This document shows positions 9,353-20,519 of a stretch of DNA of 21,888 bases, in pieces. Position 1 is the stretch's first letter. The number at the start of each line of letters is the position of its first letter. The stretch spans positions 1-21,888 of IMG/VR virus record IMGVR_UViG_3300028835_000354; one strand, written 5' to 3'. Source of the DNA: a virus. The position numbers were made by a program, and so were the translations under genes. The notes under the pieces were generated by a model. That model was not told the origin of the DNA, did no database searches, and worked only from the letters and a program-made list of their open reading frames with translations.

Positions 9353-10018
9353 TTATTTTTTAATTATGTTTCCTGTAGTAGATCCAGATCCTGCTATAGA
9401 TCCGCTTTTTGGCGTAGATGATAAATTAAGGTCAGAGCTGCTAAAAGCCTTTGCAGTTCCTTGTAGTCCTTGTCCTGCTGCGCTTAATATATAAGAGCGG
9501 TCTGCTGCTTTAGCATCAAATGATGCAGCATTTAATTTGCTTGATTCAACCGCCCTATCGCTTTTAAAGCTAATTTCTGTTCTACTAATTTCTTGCTGGT
9601 TTAATTGTTCTTGTGTTTCAAAAATCCTCTTCCTTCGCTCTTTCTCAAATAAAATTTTACTAAATTCGATTGCCTTTTCTTCTTCAAGAAGCATGGATGT
9701 GATTACATCTTGAGAAAGGTTTTTAGCCCTAGCAGTGCCTAATTGCTTCCTGATTTTTCTTCTTTGCAGATATTCATCAACATTAAACTTTTCATTAGCT
9801 ATATCTTCCTCAATTTCAAGGTTTGCCTTAATAACCTCCTTATTTCTATCAATAACTTGGTTCCTGAACTTCTGCATATTCTGTTCAGCTTCTGCATTAT
9901 TACGAGCAATGTCTGCATTTAGCTGGTTTTGCTTAGATGCTTGCCTGCCTTGCTGGATGGTACTTGCTGCTGTAATACCTGTTCCGACGATTGCTAATAA
10001 TGAAATTGGATCTCCCAT
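9353..10018 (-). CDS. Internal virion/ejection protein (T7 gp14-like)
   Basis: A 221-aa protein (T7 gp14 is 196 aa). Residues ~4-22 are hydrophobic and glycine/alanine-rich (ISLLAIVGTGITAASTI), followed by long charged helices (~25-160) with many Gln, Asn, Lys and Glu. The last ~50 residues are Ser/Gly-rich and probably disordered (DLNLSSTPKSGSIAGSGSTT). This hydrophobic N-terminus plus coiled-coil layout is usual for gp14-type ejection proteins, which form the outer-membrane pore in T7. It starts 3 nt after the nozzle gene stop. Its position directly after the nozzle and before the gp15/gp16-like genes gives the T7 order. T7 gp13 has no counterpart here. Confidence 0.8.
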   Translation of the reverse strand: MGDPISLLAIVGTGITAASTIQQGRQASKQNQLNADIARNNAEAEQNMQKFRNQVIDRNKEVIKANLEIEEDIANEKFNVDEYLQRRKIRKQLGTARAKNLSQDVITSMLLEEEKAIEFSKILFEKERRKRIFETQEQLNQQEISRTEISFKSDRAVESSKLNAASFDAKAADRSYILSAAGQGLQGTAKAFSSSDLNLSSTPKSGSIAGSGSTTGNIIKK

Positions 10019-14870: not shown

Positions 14871-15839
14871 TTAGCTATCTCCATAGATAATTTCATTGAG
14901 TGCTGATATTTTCTTAACCGCAGCTTGATGCTCTGACCTATCTTCTCTTTTCTTACTAAGCCATACGCGCTTGAAGTCTGGATCTGACATAAGTTTTTCT
15001 TTCTCCTGTTGTGCTGCTGCTTTACCAGTTACAAATCCTCCGTCTCCTTCACCGCTTATACTTGACTCAGAAAGTGCTTTTCCCATCTCAGAGAACATTT
15101 TATTAAGGACCGGATCTCTATCTACATTAAGATCTTGCAGTCTTTGAAGTGCTTTATCGCCTCCAAACTCTCTGACTGCTGCTGCAGCAAACTGCATAGT
15201 CATCTCATATTGATCCCCTTCTGTCTCTTGAAAATCTTTAACCTGTTGAGCTATTTCATTTTCAAGTTGTTGGCCTGCTGCGGTCATTGCTGATATATGA
15301 TCTGCTGTAAAGTCATCGATAATGCCCTTTGCTTGCGCTTTTGTAAGGTTATGTTTATGAAACTTCTCCTTAAATGCCTCAATTCGATCTACGTCAAAGA
15401 ATTGTTTATGTTCTTCCGCTATATCAGGGAATTCGTAATCAGCGTGCTCTTTAGGTTTTCCTAGTTCATTATAAAACTCGTTTACCTTATCTTCGGACCA
15501 ATCTTCTGCTGGCATTGCCCCTTTTTGCTCTCCGATTTTCTTCTGAGCATGATATAGTTGATTGACTAAATCTGTTGGGTCTTCATATGGGTTTTTTACA
15601 TTCTTAAGCACATTTGATGTTTTAATGTCATCTGATAAATCTAGTTTATCTCTCCAATCTTCAGCCTTTGCTTGCGATGTGATTGAACCCTCAGAAGAGG
15701 CTATTGATCCATCTGAGTTGGATTGCGCTGTTGTCGTTCCTTCTCCTTCAGAATCGCCTGTAGCTGCTGCTGAGCCGCCTTCGCCGCCTTCGCCTGTTGC
15801 ATCTTCTCTAAAGAAACCTCTAATTAACCTTTTGTTCAT
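14871..15839 (-). CDS. Capsid assembly scaffolding protein
   Basis: A 322-aa acidic protein between portal and capsid, the usual scaffold position in T7-like phages (T7 gp9, 307 aa). It opens with a Gly/Ser/Glu-rich low-complexity region (~12-60). A conserved-looking block follows (DWRDKLDLSDDIKTSNVLKN, PYEDPTDLVNQLYHAQKKIG, then GKPKEHADYEFPD), then helical coiled-coil segments and a basic C-terminal helix (PDFKRVWLSKKREDRSEHQA...) ending ALNEIIYGDS. A C-terminal basic helix-turn-helix is how scaffolds generally bind capsid. The start at 15839 has a good Shine-Dalgarno site (AAAGGT about 8 nt upstream) and overlaps the preceding gene by 20 nt. Confidence 0.9.
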   Translation of the reverse strand: MNKRLIRGFFREDATGEGGEGGSAAATGDSEGEGTTTAQSNSDGSIASSEGSITSQAKAEDWRDKLDLSDDIKTSNVLKNVKNPYEDPTDLVNQLYHAQKKIGEQKGAMPAEDWSEDKVNEFYNELGKPKEHADYEFPDIAEEHKQFFDVDRIEAFKEKFHKHNLTKAQAKGIIDDFTADHISAMTAAGQQLENEIAQQVKDFQETEGDQYEMTMQFAAAAVREFGGDKALQRLQDLNVDRDPVLNKMFSEMGKALSESSISGEGDGGFVTGKAAAQQEKEKLMSDPDFKRVWLSKKREDRSEHQAAVKKISALNEIIYGDS

Positions 15840-16170
15840 ATTTTGACCTTTCTATATTGCTTTGATATTTTGTTATAATTTTTTTAGGTGAAATGCCGGA
15901 TAATTCTAATAAATAATGAATCATTCGTCTTTCTCCAAAGTTTACTTGAAGCGGCTCATTTACTGCTAATGGGTTCCATTTTGTTATGCCTGCCTTATCA
16001 CATAGGTGTAATAATAATGCCTGACCGTCTTCATCGGAGAACTTCTTATTTGCAACAGAATGCATATACTCTAGTGTATCCTGCTTCTCTTGTTTTTTTT
16101 CTGTTGCTTTTTTAGTTGTCCGTGTCTTTTTCCTTGTCGCTGCTTTACTGGTAGTTTTCTTTTTAGTCAT
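15820..16170 (-). CDS. Lys-rich small protein between portal and scaffold, Bbp19-like C-terminal domain
   Basis: A 116-aa protein with an extremely basic N-terminal tail (MTKKKTTSKAATRKKTRTTK; ~30 residues rich in Lys, Thr, Arg, Ala) and a compact helical C-terminal domain: FSDEDGQALLLHLCDKAG, NPLAVNEPLQ, GERRMIHYLLELSG. The C-terminal pattern (F-x-x-x-x-G-x-x-L-L-x-x-L ... G-x-R-x-x-x-x-x-L) resembles the Bbp19 family found beside portals in other podoviruses. That is recognition by eye and not certain. The tail looks suited to DNA or acidic-protein binding. The gene begins 1 nt past the portal stop and overlaps the scaffold start by 20 nt. Confidence 0.75.
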   Translation of the reverse strand: MTKKKTTSKAATRKKTRTTKKATEKKQEKQDTLEYMHSVANKKFSDEDGQALLLHLCDKAGITKWNPLAVNEPLQVNFGERRMIHYLLELSGISPKKIITKYQSNIERSKYEQKVN

Positions 16171-16171
16171 C

Positions 16172-17794
16172 CTATAATATGTCTAACCCGCCCTTCTCTT
16201 TTGCTATTGCAAAGTCTTTAGCTGCTGACGCTGCTGCTGGTGCTGCATCAAGGGCTTGCTGAGTTAATTGTTGTTCTGCTTCTGCTTGCTGCATTTCCCT
16301 TACTTCCTCATCTGTTCTTAATGTTTCTGCAGGGAATCCTCTATTGTCAAAAATAAAATCTGCTAATTTAGATCCGTCGATCTTTGCCTTAATTTCTGGG
16401 AATAACTCGCTTAACGGCAATACTTCATTTAAAAGTCTTTGCATATCTAAGCTCTTAATTGCCTTTTGAGCCATTGTAGCTGGGCTTTGAAAGACGATCT
16501 TTAGTCTATTTAGATCAAAACCTTCTAGACCTTGAAACTCCTTACCCTCTTTCATTAGGTCTATTGTTCTCTCGATAAGCTTAGATAGCATTTCTTTTTG
16601 AAGTCTTTCTAGCATAGGATTCATAAGCCTAAGCATTTCGTCTCTTTTATCAGCAACTTCAAATGCTGTCTGTCTCTCCTTCTTAAATTCTTGCCTCAAG
16701 AAATCTACAAAGAAGCATCTCGAAATATGGTTTCTAGCGTCTTGAATTAATTGCAACATTAGAGATGGGACTCCTGTTACATTTAGCACGTGCGGGTCTT
16801 CAGTTCCCGGCTCTTTCCAAATCAATGATCTTGGGCCAAAGTCTACATCAGGTAAAAGTCCTTCATCTTCTGCTACAATAGGAGGTCCATTGCTTAGCTG
16901 AGCGTTAATTAATATCTCTTTAAGCATTTCATTCAACATTCTAATATCAGAGATACAAGTCATGGCTGGTGATCTTCCGTATCTTTCTCCTGCTATAGTT
17001 GACCACCTTGGAACAATATAAGGAAAACTGTCAAAACCGCCCTCTTCTAAAGGTGGTGCATCTATATCTTTTAACCAATAAAATGAAGCAAACTTTTTAT
17101 TGTTTTTAGTTTTGCGCTTCATATCCCTCTCTGTTCGTGGAAACACCGAATGCACTACTAGATAGTTTTCGGTCATTGGGACTTTATCTTTTAAAATCTC
17201 ATCTGGTATTTGTTTTTCTGGGAATCGCTGAAGTATTTGACGCTTAGTCATTCTTATGTCTCGATCCAGTGAGTCTACTTCTCCGTCTGCATTTTCATCA
17301 ATATAGCAATCTCCCAACGGAACACTTTTGTATGTAATAGCATTAGTCAACTGACTTCTAACCACAAACATAACTGAGGTTCCAAATGCTCCTACGTCTA
17401 AGAATGCTTCGTGTGTTGAAGTTCCAAAGCATGACTTTGGTAAACTAAATACCTTATAAATCCTATCTGTTATTTTTTCTAAAAGCTCCTTCTGATCTTT
17501 ATTTGGTCTGGCTACATCTTCTAATTGCAGGCCGAACCATCTGGAGCTTGATGATACTAATGATGATGCTAATCCGTTAGCTAGGGTATTATTGGCCCAC
17601 GGTGCAGTGCCGTCAAATTGTTCACAATATTTCTCTTCGCCTATCTCAGTATCTTCTTTTGATGGGTTTTCAAATGGAGAAGTGTCAGGCCTAACTAAAT
17701 CTTTAATATCCCTAAATAGGTCATCGAAATGTCTTCTTATCTGACGCTTTTGCTCGTTCTTTTCTTTTAAAATAGTTCTAGTACTTTTAGCCAT
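16172..17794 (-). CDS. Portal protein (podoviral head-tail connector family)
   Basis: The 540-aa portal forms the dodecameric ring for DNA entry and exit; T7 gp8 is 536 aa. It shows the Head-tail_con pattern (PF12236): basic N-terminal helix (EKNEQKRQIRRHFDDLFRDI, 11-30), QFDGTAPWANNTLANGLASS (59-78), SSRWFGLQL (83-91), STHEAFLDVGAFGTSVMFV (126-144), GERYGRSPAM (269-278) and ISDIRMLNEMLKEILINAQL (281-300). The C-terminus is Gln/Ala/Glu-rich (QQAEAEQQLTQQALDAAPAA), as expected for the barrel end. Its ATG overlaps the stop of the preceding gene (TAATG) with AAGG/AGGA purines upstream. Confidence 0.94.
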   Translation of the reverse strand: MAKSTRTILKEKNEQKRQIRRHFDDLFRDIKDLVRPDTSPFENPSKEDTEIGEEKYCEQFDGTAPWANNTLANGLASSLVSSSSRWFGLQLEDVARPNKDQKELLEKITDRIYKVFSLPKSCFGTSTHEAFLDVGAFGTSVMFVVRSQLTNAITYKSVPLGDCYIDENADGEVDSLDRDIRMTKRQILQRFPEKQIPDEILKDKVPMTENYLVVHSVFPRTERDMKRKTKNNKKFASFYWLKDIDAPPLEEGGFDSFPYIVPRWSTIAGERYGRSPAMTCISDIRMLNEMLKEILINAQLSNGPPIVAEDEGLLPDVDFGPRSLIWKEPGTEDPHVLNVTGVPSLMLQLIQDARNHISRCFFVDFLRQEFKKERQTAFEVADKRDEMLRLMNPMLERLQKEMLSKLIERTIDLMKEGKEFQGLEGFDLNRLKIVFQSPATMAQKAIKSLDMQRLLNEVLPLSELFPEIKAKIDGSKLADFIFDNRGFPAETLRTDEEVREMQQAEAEQQLTQQALDAAPAAASAAKDFAIAKEKGGLDIL

Positions 17795-18243
17795 TATCCT
17801 AACCTTCTTTTAAGCACGTTTGAGCTTCCTGTATTTGCGAGGGAACCTTCCCTCGGTAAACCACCACCTCTTACGATTGATCGTCTAACCGATGATGATA
17901 CACTGCCTTCTGCTCTTTGTTTCTCTTCTTCAAATGCCTTTCTCTCTGCAATAGCCTCATCTGTTCTAGATGACCTAGCACCTGCTGCTGATTCTGCCCT
18001 TCTTTGTTCTTCCCTTTGAACTTCCCTTGATAGTGTTCTGAATTGTTCTTGTGTAGCATCTGCTAAATTAAATCCGTTTTCTGTCTCTTCTCCAAATGGG
18101 CTTAGTCGAATGATTCTGTCAATTTCTCTTTCTGGTAATATTGGCCTAGCTCTTTCAAGCAAAACTCTAAACTGTTGGTTTAATTGCGTTTGAGCTTGCT
18201 GATCTGCTTGTGCTCGCCTCCTGTTGTTTCCTGAACTGCCCAT
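17794..18243 (-). CDS. Small Gln/Arg/Ser-rich protein before the portal (T7 gp7.3-position protein)
   Basis: A 149-aa hydrophilic protein of unknown function. It starts MGSSGNNRRRAQADQQAQTQ, has a central helical region (LNQQFRVLLERARPILPERE), and a very charged Gln/Arg/Glu stretch at ~80-120. The tail carries LPREGSLANTGSSNVLKRRLG. That C-terminal G-S-L...T-G-S...LG pattern recalls the tail of the Pro-rich gene upstream (18561-18902) and of small virion proteins near portals in other phages. T7 gp7.3, a tail assembly protein, occupies this place. The ATG at 18243 overlaps the upstream gene by 77 nt; no later Met is available, so the long overlap is real unless a GTG or TTG start is used. A GAGAGAAAG purine run precedes it. 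Confidence 0.75.
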   Translation of the reverse strand: MGSSGNNRRRAQADQQAQTQLNQQFRVLLERARPILPEREIDRIIRLSPFGEETENGFNLADATQEQFRTLSREVQREEQRRAESAAGARSSRTDEAIAERKAFEEEKQRAEGSVSSSVRRSIVRGGGLPREGSLANTGSSNVLKRRLG

Positions 18244-18595
18244 TTGTAAACTTTCTCTCTAATTTCTCCCAACTGTATTTGTAAATCTGCTTTCCTCCAT
18301 CTCTCTTCTCTCTTACCCAAGAAACATAGGGTAGGTAAAAAGGAATGCTCCAATAAAAAACTTCAAATGCATTTTTACCAACTGCCAGTCCAATGAACCA
18401 AGTGTCGTCGTCAACCACGCAAGCGAGTAACATATGGTCGGGCTTTGCGACACAAATTCCTTTTTTAGCAAAGAATAATATGTGTTGATCCAAAAGCTCT
18501 TGGTTTCCTTTATAGAATTTGACTGCCTCGATATATGCGTCATTATGTTCGTATAGTTCGTTATCCCAGTGTTTTTGACAATTGTCTTGATGCAT
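18167..18595 (-). CDS. WFI-LA-G / PxYLPxV family protein, second paralogue
   Basis: A 142-aa protein of unknown function, clearly related to the 114-aa gene at 18887-19231. Shared core: DTWFIGLAVGKNAFEVFYW (64-82) then PFYLPYVSWVREKR (85-98) and a final KLERKF (111-116). The first paralogue has AWFIFLAIGSNCFKIWYKQM, PYYLPNVAYYRPLR and RLEKFI. The core reads as beta-strands with aromatic side chains, without recognisable catalytic residues. This copy has an extra Ser-rich tail (ASTSRSASSNAIKPTV) encoded entirely within the overlap with the next gene. The start has GGAG about 9 nt upstream and overlaps the Pro-rich gene by 35 nt. In position it matches T7 gene 7, between 6.7 and 7.3, but homology is not shown. 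Confidence 0.8.
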   Translation of the reverse strand: MHQDNCQKHWDNELYEHNDAYIEAVKFYKGNQELLDQHILFFAKKGICVAKPDHMLLACVVDDDTWFIGLAVGKNAFEVFYWSIPFYLPYVSWVREKRDGGKQIYKYSWEKLERKFTNGQFRKQQEASTSRSASSNAIKPTV

Positions 18596-18902
18596 CCGTT
18601 GAAGCTCCGCTTGCTGTTAAACCTAATGAACCAGTCAATCTGGTTGTATCTTTGCTCTGTATTGTTCTGTTTCTAGCTAATACGTTTAGTCTGGTATTTG
18701 CTCTAAATGCTTCTTTCTCTGCCTCGGTAGGTGCTATTTCACTAATCTCTGTTCCTATTGGCAGTGGTGTTGGTTCTGGAGCTACTACTGGTGGCGGGGG
18801 TAATTCTGGTGGCGGGGGTGGTGCTTGAACAGCCGTGCTTCCACCGCCTCCTAATTCACATAGTAGTGTAAATTTAAAAAATTTTTTTATTTCTTTGAAC
18901 AT
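18561..18902 (-). CDS. Proline-rich small virion-type protein (T7 gp6.7-position)
   Basis: A 113-aa protein with a basic/aromatic N-terminus (MFKEIKKFFKFTLLCELGGG), a polyproline stretch at ~28-48 (PPPPPELPPPP and VVAPEPTPLP), a helical charged middle (TEAEKEAFRANTRLNVLARN), and a C-terminal TRLTGSLGLTASG...LSKTLG tail. The G-S-L-G-L-T-x-S-G...LG ending is common in small head/tail proteins encoded near phage portals. It is also echoed at the end of the 149-aa gene (GSLANTGSS...RRLG). T7 gp6.7 sits at the comparable place and enters the virion. The Cys at 15 lacks a lipobox, so it is not called a lipoprotein. It overlaps its neighbours by 16 and 35 nt. Confidence 0.75.
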   Translation of the reverse strand: MFKEIKKFFKFTLLCELGGGGSTAVQAPPPPPELPPPPVVAPEPTPLPIGTEISEIAPTEAEKEAFRANTRLNVLARNRTIQSKDTTRLTGSLGLTASGASTDASRQLSKTLG

Positions 18903-19231
18903 ATAAATTTCTCTAGTCGCTTCATTGGTATAATATGCAATCTATCCCTTCCCCTTAGCGGCCTGTAGTATGCTACGTTGGGCAAGTAATATGGCATTTG
19001 CTTGTACCAAATCTTAAAACAATTTGAGCCTATAGCAAGAAAAATAAACCAAGCCTTGACAGGATGGTTAATTCTCTTTGCCCATATCATAGAGCTTGGA
19101 GTCTTTACCACATAATGGTTGCCCATGTATATTTCATATTGCTCTCGATAGTTTAAACCCTGTGATTCTACGAGTTCTTTTGCCTTAGGAAATATATCTC
19201 TATCACATAACTCTTCTTGGTCTATTTGCAT
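18887..19231 (-). CDS. WFI-LA-G / PxYLPxV family protein, first paralogue
   Basis: A 114-aa protein I cannot assign to a named family. Residues 39-53 (HYVVKTPSSMIWAKR) and 60-90 (AWFIFLAIGSNCFKIWYKQM, PYYLPNVAYYR) align with the 142-aa protein at 18167-18595, and both end in R/K-L-E-[KR]. The pair therefore arose by duplication, then diverged strongly. The sequence is rich in Trp, Tyr and Phe and looks like a compact beta-rich fold. There is no signal peptide. It overlaps the terminase end by 29 nt and the Pro-rich gene by 16 nt. The upstream purines (GAGACAGAAG) make a mediocre ribosome site. Its place between terminase and portal suggests a head- or tail-assembly role. Confidence 0.8.
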   Translation of the reverse strand: MQIDQEELCDRDIFPKAKELVESQGLNYREQYEIYMGNHYVVKTPSSMIWAKRINHPVKAWFIFLAIGSNCFKIWYKQMPYYLPNVAYYRPLRGRDRLHIIPMKRLEKFICSKK

Positions 19232-20519
19232 ACTTCTGTCTCGTAGTTTCTTTTTTTCTTTCTTTGAAAGACATAGCTAAAGTCCTCATTGCGTCTGCTG
19301 CATGTGATGACCAGTCATGTGTTGGGTTATTTGAGTACACTTGCCTTTCTTCATTCCAAGCTTTTGAATATGACTTTAATGCTTTAATACCTAAGTCGCA
19401 TCTTCTATAATCGAACCAACATCTTGATAGTAAGTCTCTTACGGCTTCTATGCCGTGTGCTACACCTTCTTTTGGTAGGACTTTAAACTTAATTCCTTTT
19501 AATCTTGCATGGTCCTTAAGCTTTCTTCCGGTTTGAACGCTTCCTGATCCAGCATCCCAAGGGGCAAAGTGAGTTCCGTAATTGTAATTTTTTTGTTTAA
19601 GTATTTTTGCGTAGAACTCAATGCCTTCACCGCTGTTTTCGTAATAATCAATTAACCTAATCTCCTGACCCCATCTTTGGTAGAACCATATACTTGTAGC
19701 GTCACCGTATCCAAAGTCCCATGCTGTATGGACTTCAAGTCTTGTATCGTAAGGCACATTAGTTATTCTCTGCTCTTTTGTCGCTGTTCTCATTTGAGGG
19801 CCATAATAAGCACCTTGAATTGGTGACTTGAAAGAACAGAAGAACTCTTGCTGAAATAATGCCTCATCGCCTAATGCTTCTCTAGATTCCCTCAATTTTT
19901 CTTTTGTAAGTACTTTACAGTCTTTTGATGTTAGCCATGAGCAATACCAATCTTTTTCTTTTTGGGACTTAAGCATTAAATCATATGCGTGGTTTTCTCC
20001 ACGAGGTGTAAAAATAAAGTTAGCCCACCCATCATTCTCTGCGAGGATAGGGACAATGAGCTTCCAAACCTGCTCACTCATAAGCGAATACTCAGAGAAG
20101 ACTACACCTACTGGATTTGCACCTACTAGTCTGTCTGGGTCATCAGCACCCATTATTTGTATAATGCTTCCGTTGCGCATGTTAATACGCATCTCATTAC
20201 CAATTTTTCTTTCAACTAAAGCTTCTGGTGCATAATCAATAAACTTAACCCCCGGACTTCTTGTGCCGTCAGCTCTTAGTGTACCACCCGTAACACCATT
20301 CCATAAAATCTTTTTACCTTGATTGAGGAACGGATATATAAGCCAATATAGCCCAACTCTAAGTTGTGACTGTAATACGGTCTGATTAAATACTGTTAAA
20401 TCTTTTCCGTGTCGTCGAGGCCAAACCATTACGGCTCTCTTGCCTCCTTTTTGCATATAATCCCAGTAGCCTCTTTGATAAACTCTGGGTGTGAATCCGT
20501 GCGCTGGTAGTTGTATCAT
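19203..20519 (-). CDS. terL: Terminase large subunit (packaging ATPase and nuclease)
   Basis: The 438-aa motor that packages and cuts phage DNA. The N-terminal ATPase has a deviant Walker A, WPRRHGKD (33-40, Lys39), and a Walker B with catalytic glutamate, VGVVFSEYS (137-145, Glu143). A TPRGENHAYD segment (171-180) fits the coupling motif. The C-terminal RNase H-like nuclease shows three acidic sites: WDFGYGDATS (Asp268), WDAGSG (Asp322) and SSHAADAMR (Asp409). The length is typical of compact phage terminases (T7 gp19 is 586 aa). The ATG immediately follows the stop of the preceding small gene. In T7 the terminase lies after the fibre; here it precedes the portal. The strategy (headful, cos or terminal repeats) cannot be read from this sequence. 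Confidence 0.96.
   Translation of the reverse strand: MIQLPAHGFTPRVYQRGYWDYMQKGGKRAVMVWPRRHGKDLTVFNQTVLQSQLRVGLYWLIYPFLNQGKKILWNGVTGGTLRADGTRSPGVKFIDYAPEALVERKIGNEMRINMRNGSIIQIMGADDPDRLVGANPVGVVFSEYSLMSEQVWKLIVPILAENDGWANFIFTPRGENHAYDLMLKSQKEKDWYCSWLTSKDCKVLTKEKLRESREALGDEALFQQEFFCSFKSPIQGAYYGPQMRTATKEQRITNVPYDTRLEVHTAWDFGYGDATSIWFYQRWGQEIRLIDYYENSGEGIEFYAKILKQKNYNYGTHFAPWDAGSGSVQTGRKLKDHARLKGIKFKVLPKEGVAHGIEAVRDLLSRCWFDYRRCDLGIKALKSYSKAWNEERQVYSNNPTHDWSSHAADAMRTLAMSFKERKKETTRQKYANRPRRVM

Follow-up and report, generated by a model that had tools for sequence, protein, structure and literature searches.

Why would a short-tailed phage place two small gene pairs of similar design between the genes for its terminase and its portal? 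The question is raised by a 21.9-kb virus record from IMG/VR (IMGVR_UViG_3300028835_000354, positions 1 to 21,888; "the window" hereafter means this whole stretch), which comes from an uncultured short-tailed phage. On its minus strand the genes follow one another in the order TerL (large terminase subunit)-A1-B1-A2-B2-portal, the end of each overlapping the start of the next. A1 is homologous to A2, and each lies just ahead of a low-complexity B protein. Our reading is that A is probably a GNAT-fold protein which has lost catalysis and acts as partner to an ejection-type protein in assembly. The fuller account, to which we would give an even chance, is that a non-catalytic, GNAT-fold-like A binds its cognate B and hands it over, B being packaged and A not. 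The genes concerned are the following.

19203..20519, minus strand: TerL, the upstream anchor of the slot (phrog_2, E 3e-27; Terminase_6C).
18887..19231, minus strand: A1, a small protein of 114 amino acids (aa), predicted GNAT-fold-like, homologous to A2 and to the single A of other phages.
18561..18902, minus strand: B1, a low-complexity protein of 113 aa, backed by codon usage and a PHROG 831-type layout.
18167..18595, minus strand: A2, a small protein of 142 aa, predicted GNAT-fold-like from its AlphaFold core, homologous to A1.
17794..18243, minus strand: B2, a low-complexity helical and charged protein of 149 aa, backed by codon usage and a weak tail likeness.
16172..17794, minus strand: portal or head-to-tail connector, the downstream anchor (PF12236, E 6e-100; phrog_332, E 1e-108).

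The overlaps amount to 29 nucleotides (nt) for TerL/A1, 16 nt for A1/B1, 35 nt for B1/A2, 77 nt for A2/B2 and 1 nt for B2/portal. Under a codon-usage model trained on the window's other genes, the frames of A2, B1 and B2 far outscore the other five frames; the A1 frame also scores highest, but weakly, and was accepted because A1 has homologues. All four genes are real, and the coordinates given to them by an earlier, sequence-only reading of this DNA were correct, the open reading frames (ORFs) being recovered and the frames backed by codon usage.

The two A proteins share 34% identity over 68 aa (BLASTP E 3e-11). Their common core, W-F-I..LA.G followed by P-x-Y-L-P and an R, had been noticed from the sequence alone and is confirmed here: all of the 13 family members compared share its W, G, P, L, P and R. 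The suspicion that the family is unnamed was likewise borne out, since neither A1, A2 nor the further members carry a Pfam or PHROG name; searches of the 13 members against these two collections gave no named family and no GNAT match. Only chance-level matches were obtained when the A profile was run against PDB sequences, BLASTN of the window against annotated phages found nothing, and no A relative was confirmed in bacterial and archaeal genome contigs. Protein searches identified a single annotated phage with A, MW202510.1, and the further relatives came from profile scans of IMG/VR.

The AlphaFold model of A2, built with 12 sequences, reaches a predicted local distance difference test score of about 95 over residues 21-110 and shows the order helix, helix, strand, strand, strand, helix, strand, strand. 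This contains the GNAT topology of a helix pair, a three-stranded antiparallel sheet, a helix and a further strand. When the model was compared with the PDB using VIA-align, 50 of the 50 matches listed were GNAT enzymes (Z 6.5-7.8 over some 90 residues), and the same held for all 50 listed for a natural A-B fusion protein described below (Z 4.7-7.0); no other fold appeared among the matches listed for the two models. Foldseek alone gave no PDB match with E below 0.001. Among viral models in BFVD, the T7-type gp7 (host range protein) of P694 ranks fifth against A2, with a Foldseek probability of 1.00 and E 6e-3, at a template modelling score of only 0.32-0.35 over 76 columns; the host specificity proteins of CR8 and Ahp1 rank lower. 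A is thus predicted to be GNAT-fold-like. We do not class it as an acetyltransferase, because the acetyl-CoA pyrophosphate loop R/Q-x-x-G-x-G/A, expected between strand 4 and helix 3, is missing on inspection from an alignment of 40 A sequences, helix 3 is very short, and no sequence profile links the two. In profile comparisons with hhalign, A against the T7 gp7 family (phrog_2746) came out negative, at a probability of 0.1-0.2% with a gp7 profile of only 5 sequences, and A against the acetyltransferases discussed next was not significant. The pairs gp7-acetyltransferase, gp13-acetyltransferase and gp13-gp7 were also compared; as no pair was significant, homology across these four groups is not claimed.

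The place of A in related phages was surveyed in 80 IMG/VR loci chosen by TerL similarity, independently of A, scoring A with an iterated profile limited to the stretch behind TerL. A lies between TerL and portal in 34 of them, and an acetyltransferase occupies that exact place in 22. The two are never found together (0/80); the remaining loci have B alone, another gene, or are cut. All four slot acetyltransferases tested have matches to Pfam Acetyltransf_1 or _7, which for two of the proteins stay under the curated cut-offs, and both of those tested match the acetyltransferase family phrog_1249. In one locus (L046:3784-4263) the slot gene encodes a different protein of 159 aa, neither A nor acetyltransferase, and a proline-rich, LG-tailed B comes next. 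Including the window and loci found through A, 42 A loci were available. Two A genes occur only in the window virus, represented by the window and contig L001, each other A-bearing record tested having one; no other surveyed phage has two cassettes. L001 was set aside as independent support, being the same virus with 11 differences in 5.6 kb, none of them in the four genes. Seven of the 11 fall in TerL (L001:3435-3762 against the window), six within about 20 bases.

A is met in two settings. In the first, TerL-A-B-portal, B is small, rich in proline and glycine and ends in LG. The expectation that A genes would directly precede such a protein in relatives was upheld: of 33 A-bearing loci, 31 have LG among the 12 C-terminal residues of B, and a mis-picked ORF accounts for one of the two exceptions. 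For comparison, 19 of 541 other ORFs carry LG among their final 6 residues. In a second setting (L011, L015, L023 and L028), A stands behind a tail protein and directly ahead of a low-complexity, ejection-type protein of 370-660 aa, whose N-terminus is B-like (MGGSTTVEAPTP, MGSTTVQAPAP, MASVKVPTPPPAP and MGSRVTMPAAPPAP). Moreover, in two other phages A and B form one continuous ORF (L014:4869-5348 and L029:838-1320); in the first, the former B start (MGGAPS) persists as an internal methionine. These fusions support the specific A-B partnership that had been suggested for the window.

In the window, B1 has a GGGG- and proline-rich N-terminal half and the tail ...LTGSLGL...KTLG; B2 starts M-G-S-S-G and ends ...VLKRRLG. 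B1 matches only phrog_13568, and weakly (E 0.044), a profile also weakly touched by PHROG 831 B proteins; neither B1 nor B2 matches phrog_831 at E up to 1. The sequence-only reading had seen a common LG tail in both, and this claim survives in part. Full-length B1 and B2 have no BLASTP match, while their last 25 aa align somewhat better than chance (8 of 1000 shuffles align as well; 35 of 1000 over 50 aa). A full-length tail-profile score was unfair to B1 for reasons of composition and length and was replaced by a test in which the last 45 residues were scored with a profile built from the B tails of other phages, alongside 500 shuffles. B2 weakly fits this profile, beating all but 4 shuffles. 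B1 does better than all but 9 of them when composition is left uncorrected, but fails once the correction is applied (78/500).

From these elements the following account may be built. A1 and A2 would be two copies, now diverged, of an assembly factor that is GNAT-fold-like and probably not catalytic. They would fill the place next to the portal where T7 has gp7, and where SP6, K1E and many marine podophages have an acetyltransferase. Each would be translated just ahead of, and overlapping with, a small and presumably disordered B of gp6.7/gp7.3 type, with its Gly/Pro-rich N-terminus and LG tail. A might then bind its cognate B during synthesis, hold or protect it, and pass it to the portal or tail channel as the head is assembled; A would stay unpackaged, and B would enter the virion and leave it ahead of the DNA. 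The window virus would have two such pairs in series where its relatives have one. What favours the assembly-helper reading is that A and B can be fused, that the gene order is constant and that the genes overlap. Several observations nevertheless weigh against it. Some phages of the group lack both A and acetyltransferase, so that the helper would be generally dispensable; the Z scores stay below 8 throughout, a range that a common arrangement alone can reach; sequence profiles tie A neither to gp7 nor to the slot acetyltransferases; B1 and B2 resemble PHROG 831 by layout only; and A, B1 and B2 are known from genes alone, not from virions. In the model of the L014 fusion, furthermore, B is disordered and makes no trustworthy contact with A. 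A view of B docked on A by way of this fold was discarded, B being of low confidence and mostly unstructured.

It had been suggested that A is an assembly or a DNA-ejection partner of B. The first half of this suggestion fares better than the second. The 11 proteins listed for phiPsa17 virions include gp6.7 and gp7.3 but neither gp7 nor gp13, which are the T7-type candidates at matching positions (PMC4517105). This makes help in assembly a likelier role for A than that of a partner which is itself ejected. A globular domain of 110 aa would also fit an ejected peptide poorly. That A is nonetheless a virion component, such as a protein of the portal or tail channel that is ejected alongside B, is suggested by its location among structural genes and by its fusion to B in two phages; we hold it to be rather unlikely. 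Slimmer still is the prospect that A is a host-takeover or moron protein hitchhiking in a permissive gap. T7 gp7 is filed under moron/host takeover in PHROGs, and the phages that do without A or acetyltransferase fit such a role, but the presence of A directly ahead of a Pro/Gly-started protein in two genomic settings, and the two fusions, argue against hitchhiking.

Another candidate role for A is that of an active acyl- or acetyltransferase, acting on the N-terminus of B or of the large ejection protein once the methionine has been removed. A and the slot acetyltransferases share position and predicted fold, and the B proteins beside the latter have a peculiar N-terminus. With start codons chosen by eye or as the first ATG, B begins with Met-Cys in 17 of 21 slot-acetyltransferase loci (6 of 7 clusters at 60% identity), compared with none of 53 loci with A (0/38) or an empty slot (0/15) and 3 of 399 other ORFs. 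The ejection protein behind the acetyltransferase of phage CRP-810 starts MCGGSPPPPP, and T7 gp6.7 and gp14 also start MC. The pattern hints at N-terminal modification of ejection proteins. The Fisher value for the association is extreme, but the loci share ancestry, falling into 7 acetyltransferase clusters, and are not phylogenetically independent. In four slot-acetyltransferase loci, and at the level of clusters in one, B starts with MG, as in SP6 and K1E. For A itself, the missing loop after strand 4, the very short helix that follows and the lack of MC starts beside it, with MG in only 21 of 38, make an active enzyme unlikely. One could also imagine, with slightly more confidence but still as a minority view, that the acetyltransferase encoded near the portal in podophages is there specifically to modify the N-termini of ejection proteins (those with Met-Cys-Gly-Gly or Met-Gly-Ser plus proline starts), and that A derives from it, either as an enzyme that still acts on Gly starts or as no more than a chaperone that binds. 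If so, ejection in podophages would require modifier and substrate to match, and the window virus would have two such pairs. The marine podophage acetyltransferases (L058, L087, L104 and others) directly precede proteins mostly starting MC(GG)..PPP.

How did the window virus come by two pairs? The sequence-only reading had inferred duplication of a whole pair followed by divergence. A1 and A2 are indeed homologous, but the likeness of B1 to B2 is weak, and A1 differs from A2 as much as either does from the A of other phages (about 33-34% identity). A recent tandem duplication is ruled out by the 34% identity. The second A may go back to an old duplication of the pair, to duplication of A alone, or to another phage. 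We see somewhat less than an even chance that no pair was ever duplicated, and that an A gained from another phage, with its own downstream gene or without it, or an A copied on its own, was inserted between two old B-type genes. The mutual distance of A1 and A2 favours this, as do the little that B1 and B2 have in common, a weak grouping of A1 with an A of the second setting in a tree of long branches, and the existence of phages (L008, L045 and L117) that carry two B-type genes but lack A. Against it, a tree joining A1 and A2 is not rejected; their union is neither recovered nor excluded (approximately unbiased test, p-AU 0.37, 0.53). At a guess, A1 would be the added gene, since B1-A2-B2-portal copies the T7 order.

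Elsewhere in the window, a 116-aa, Lys-rich protein is encoded directly past the portal (15820-16170, minus strand), with weak Bbp19-like and phrog_14772 matches; in relatives, a gene of 90-100 aa also comes after the portal. Farther on (9353-10018, minus strand) lies the gene for a 221-aa gp14-like internal virion protein (phrog_418, E 1e-7). Proteins of 876 aa and 1479 aa come next and are probably large ejection proteins; no gp13-like gene lies immediately ahead of the gp14-like one.

Taken together, position, predicted fold, the mutual exclusion of A and acetyltransferase, the A-B fusions and the Met-Cys association lead to a single testable idea, that of a GNAT-fold helper co-produced with each small ejected protein. 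In addition, A is a family missing from databases, and it flags unannotated ORFs ahead of podophage portals as worth examining. To our knowledge, no settled role exists for gp7 and gp13 of T7 or for the acetyltransferases of SP6-like and marine podophages.

The parallel with T7 is one of order. In T7 (6.7-7-7.3-(7.7)-8), a small unfolded virion protein, gp7 and a second small unfolded virion protein lead up to the portal; in the B1-A2-B2-portal segment of the window, their putative counterparts B1, A2 and B2 stand in these positions. This correspondence, already drawn from the sequence, holds, and it gains some weight from the match of the A2 model to the T7-type gp7 of P694, low as its template modelling score is. 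It is qualified by several differences: there is no sequence match between A and gp7 or between B and gp6.7 or gp7.3, the T7 cluster comes after DNA-metabolism genes rather than TerL, and the window has an extra A in front. In T7, gp6.7 forms a bridge from the portal barrel to the core proteins and gp7.3 occupies the tail channel; the two proteins are ejected (PMC11784390). Small ORFs just ahead of the portal of phage Peru-2 have been proposed as gp6.7/gp7.3 analogues (PMC13320782).

The closest annotated relative is MW202510.1 (Podoviridae sp. ct3Et533, Manatee Spring; our locus L003), with TerL, an A of 124 aa, a B of 82 aa and the portal; it differs from the window in having a single cassette. 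Its A and B (L003:2051-2594) are unannotated in the public record, though homologous ORFs occur in many contigs. The B proteins of this phage, L013, L081, L058 and HTVC203P belong to PHROG 831, a family of unknown function, proline-rich and ending STILTG...LLG; B1 and B2 of the window fall short of a match to it.

Relatives of the slot acetyltransferases are found in 162 annotated phage records. SP6 (gp28) and K1E (gp27) have the arrangement small ORF-acetyltransferase-69-aa ORF-portal, the same position and order and a GNAT fold; theirs is a recognisable and probably active acetyltransferase, whereas A is shorter, lacks the acetyl-CoA loop and has no sequence match to it. In marine podophages (L058, L104 and others), a PHROG 1249 acetyltransferase replaces A one for one between TerL and the PHROG 831 B; unlike A, it matches Pfam Acetyltransf_1/7, and its B partners mostly start Met-Cys. 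The acetyltransferases of roseophages CRP-4 and CRP-5 have been read as regulators of host metabolism (PMC6918029). In CRP-810 (L124, 4004-6329), however, the acetyltransferase lies between a tail protein and the MC-starting ejection protein, here of 621 aa. This is the second setting of A, so that A and acetyltransferase alternate in both settings, and the position speaks for a role of the CRP-810 enzyme in virion assembly.

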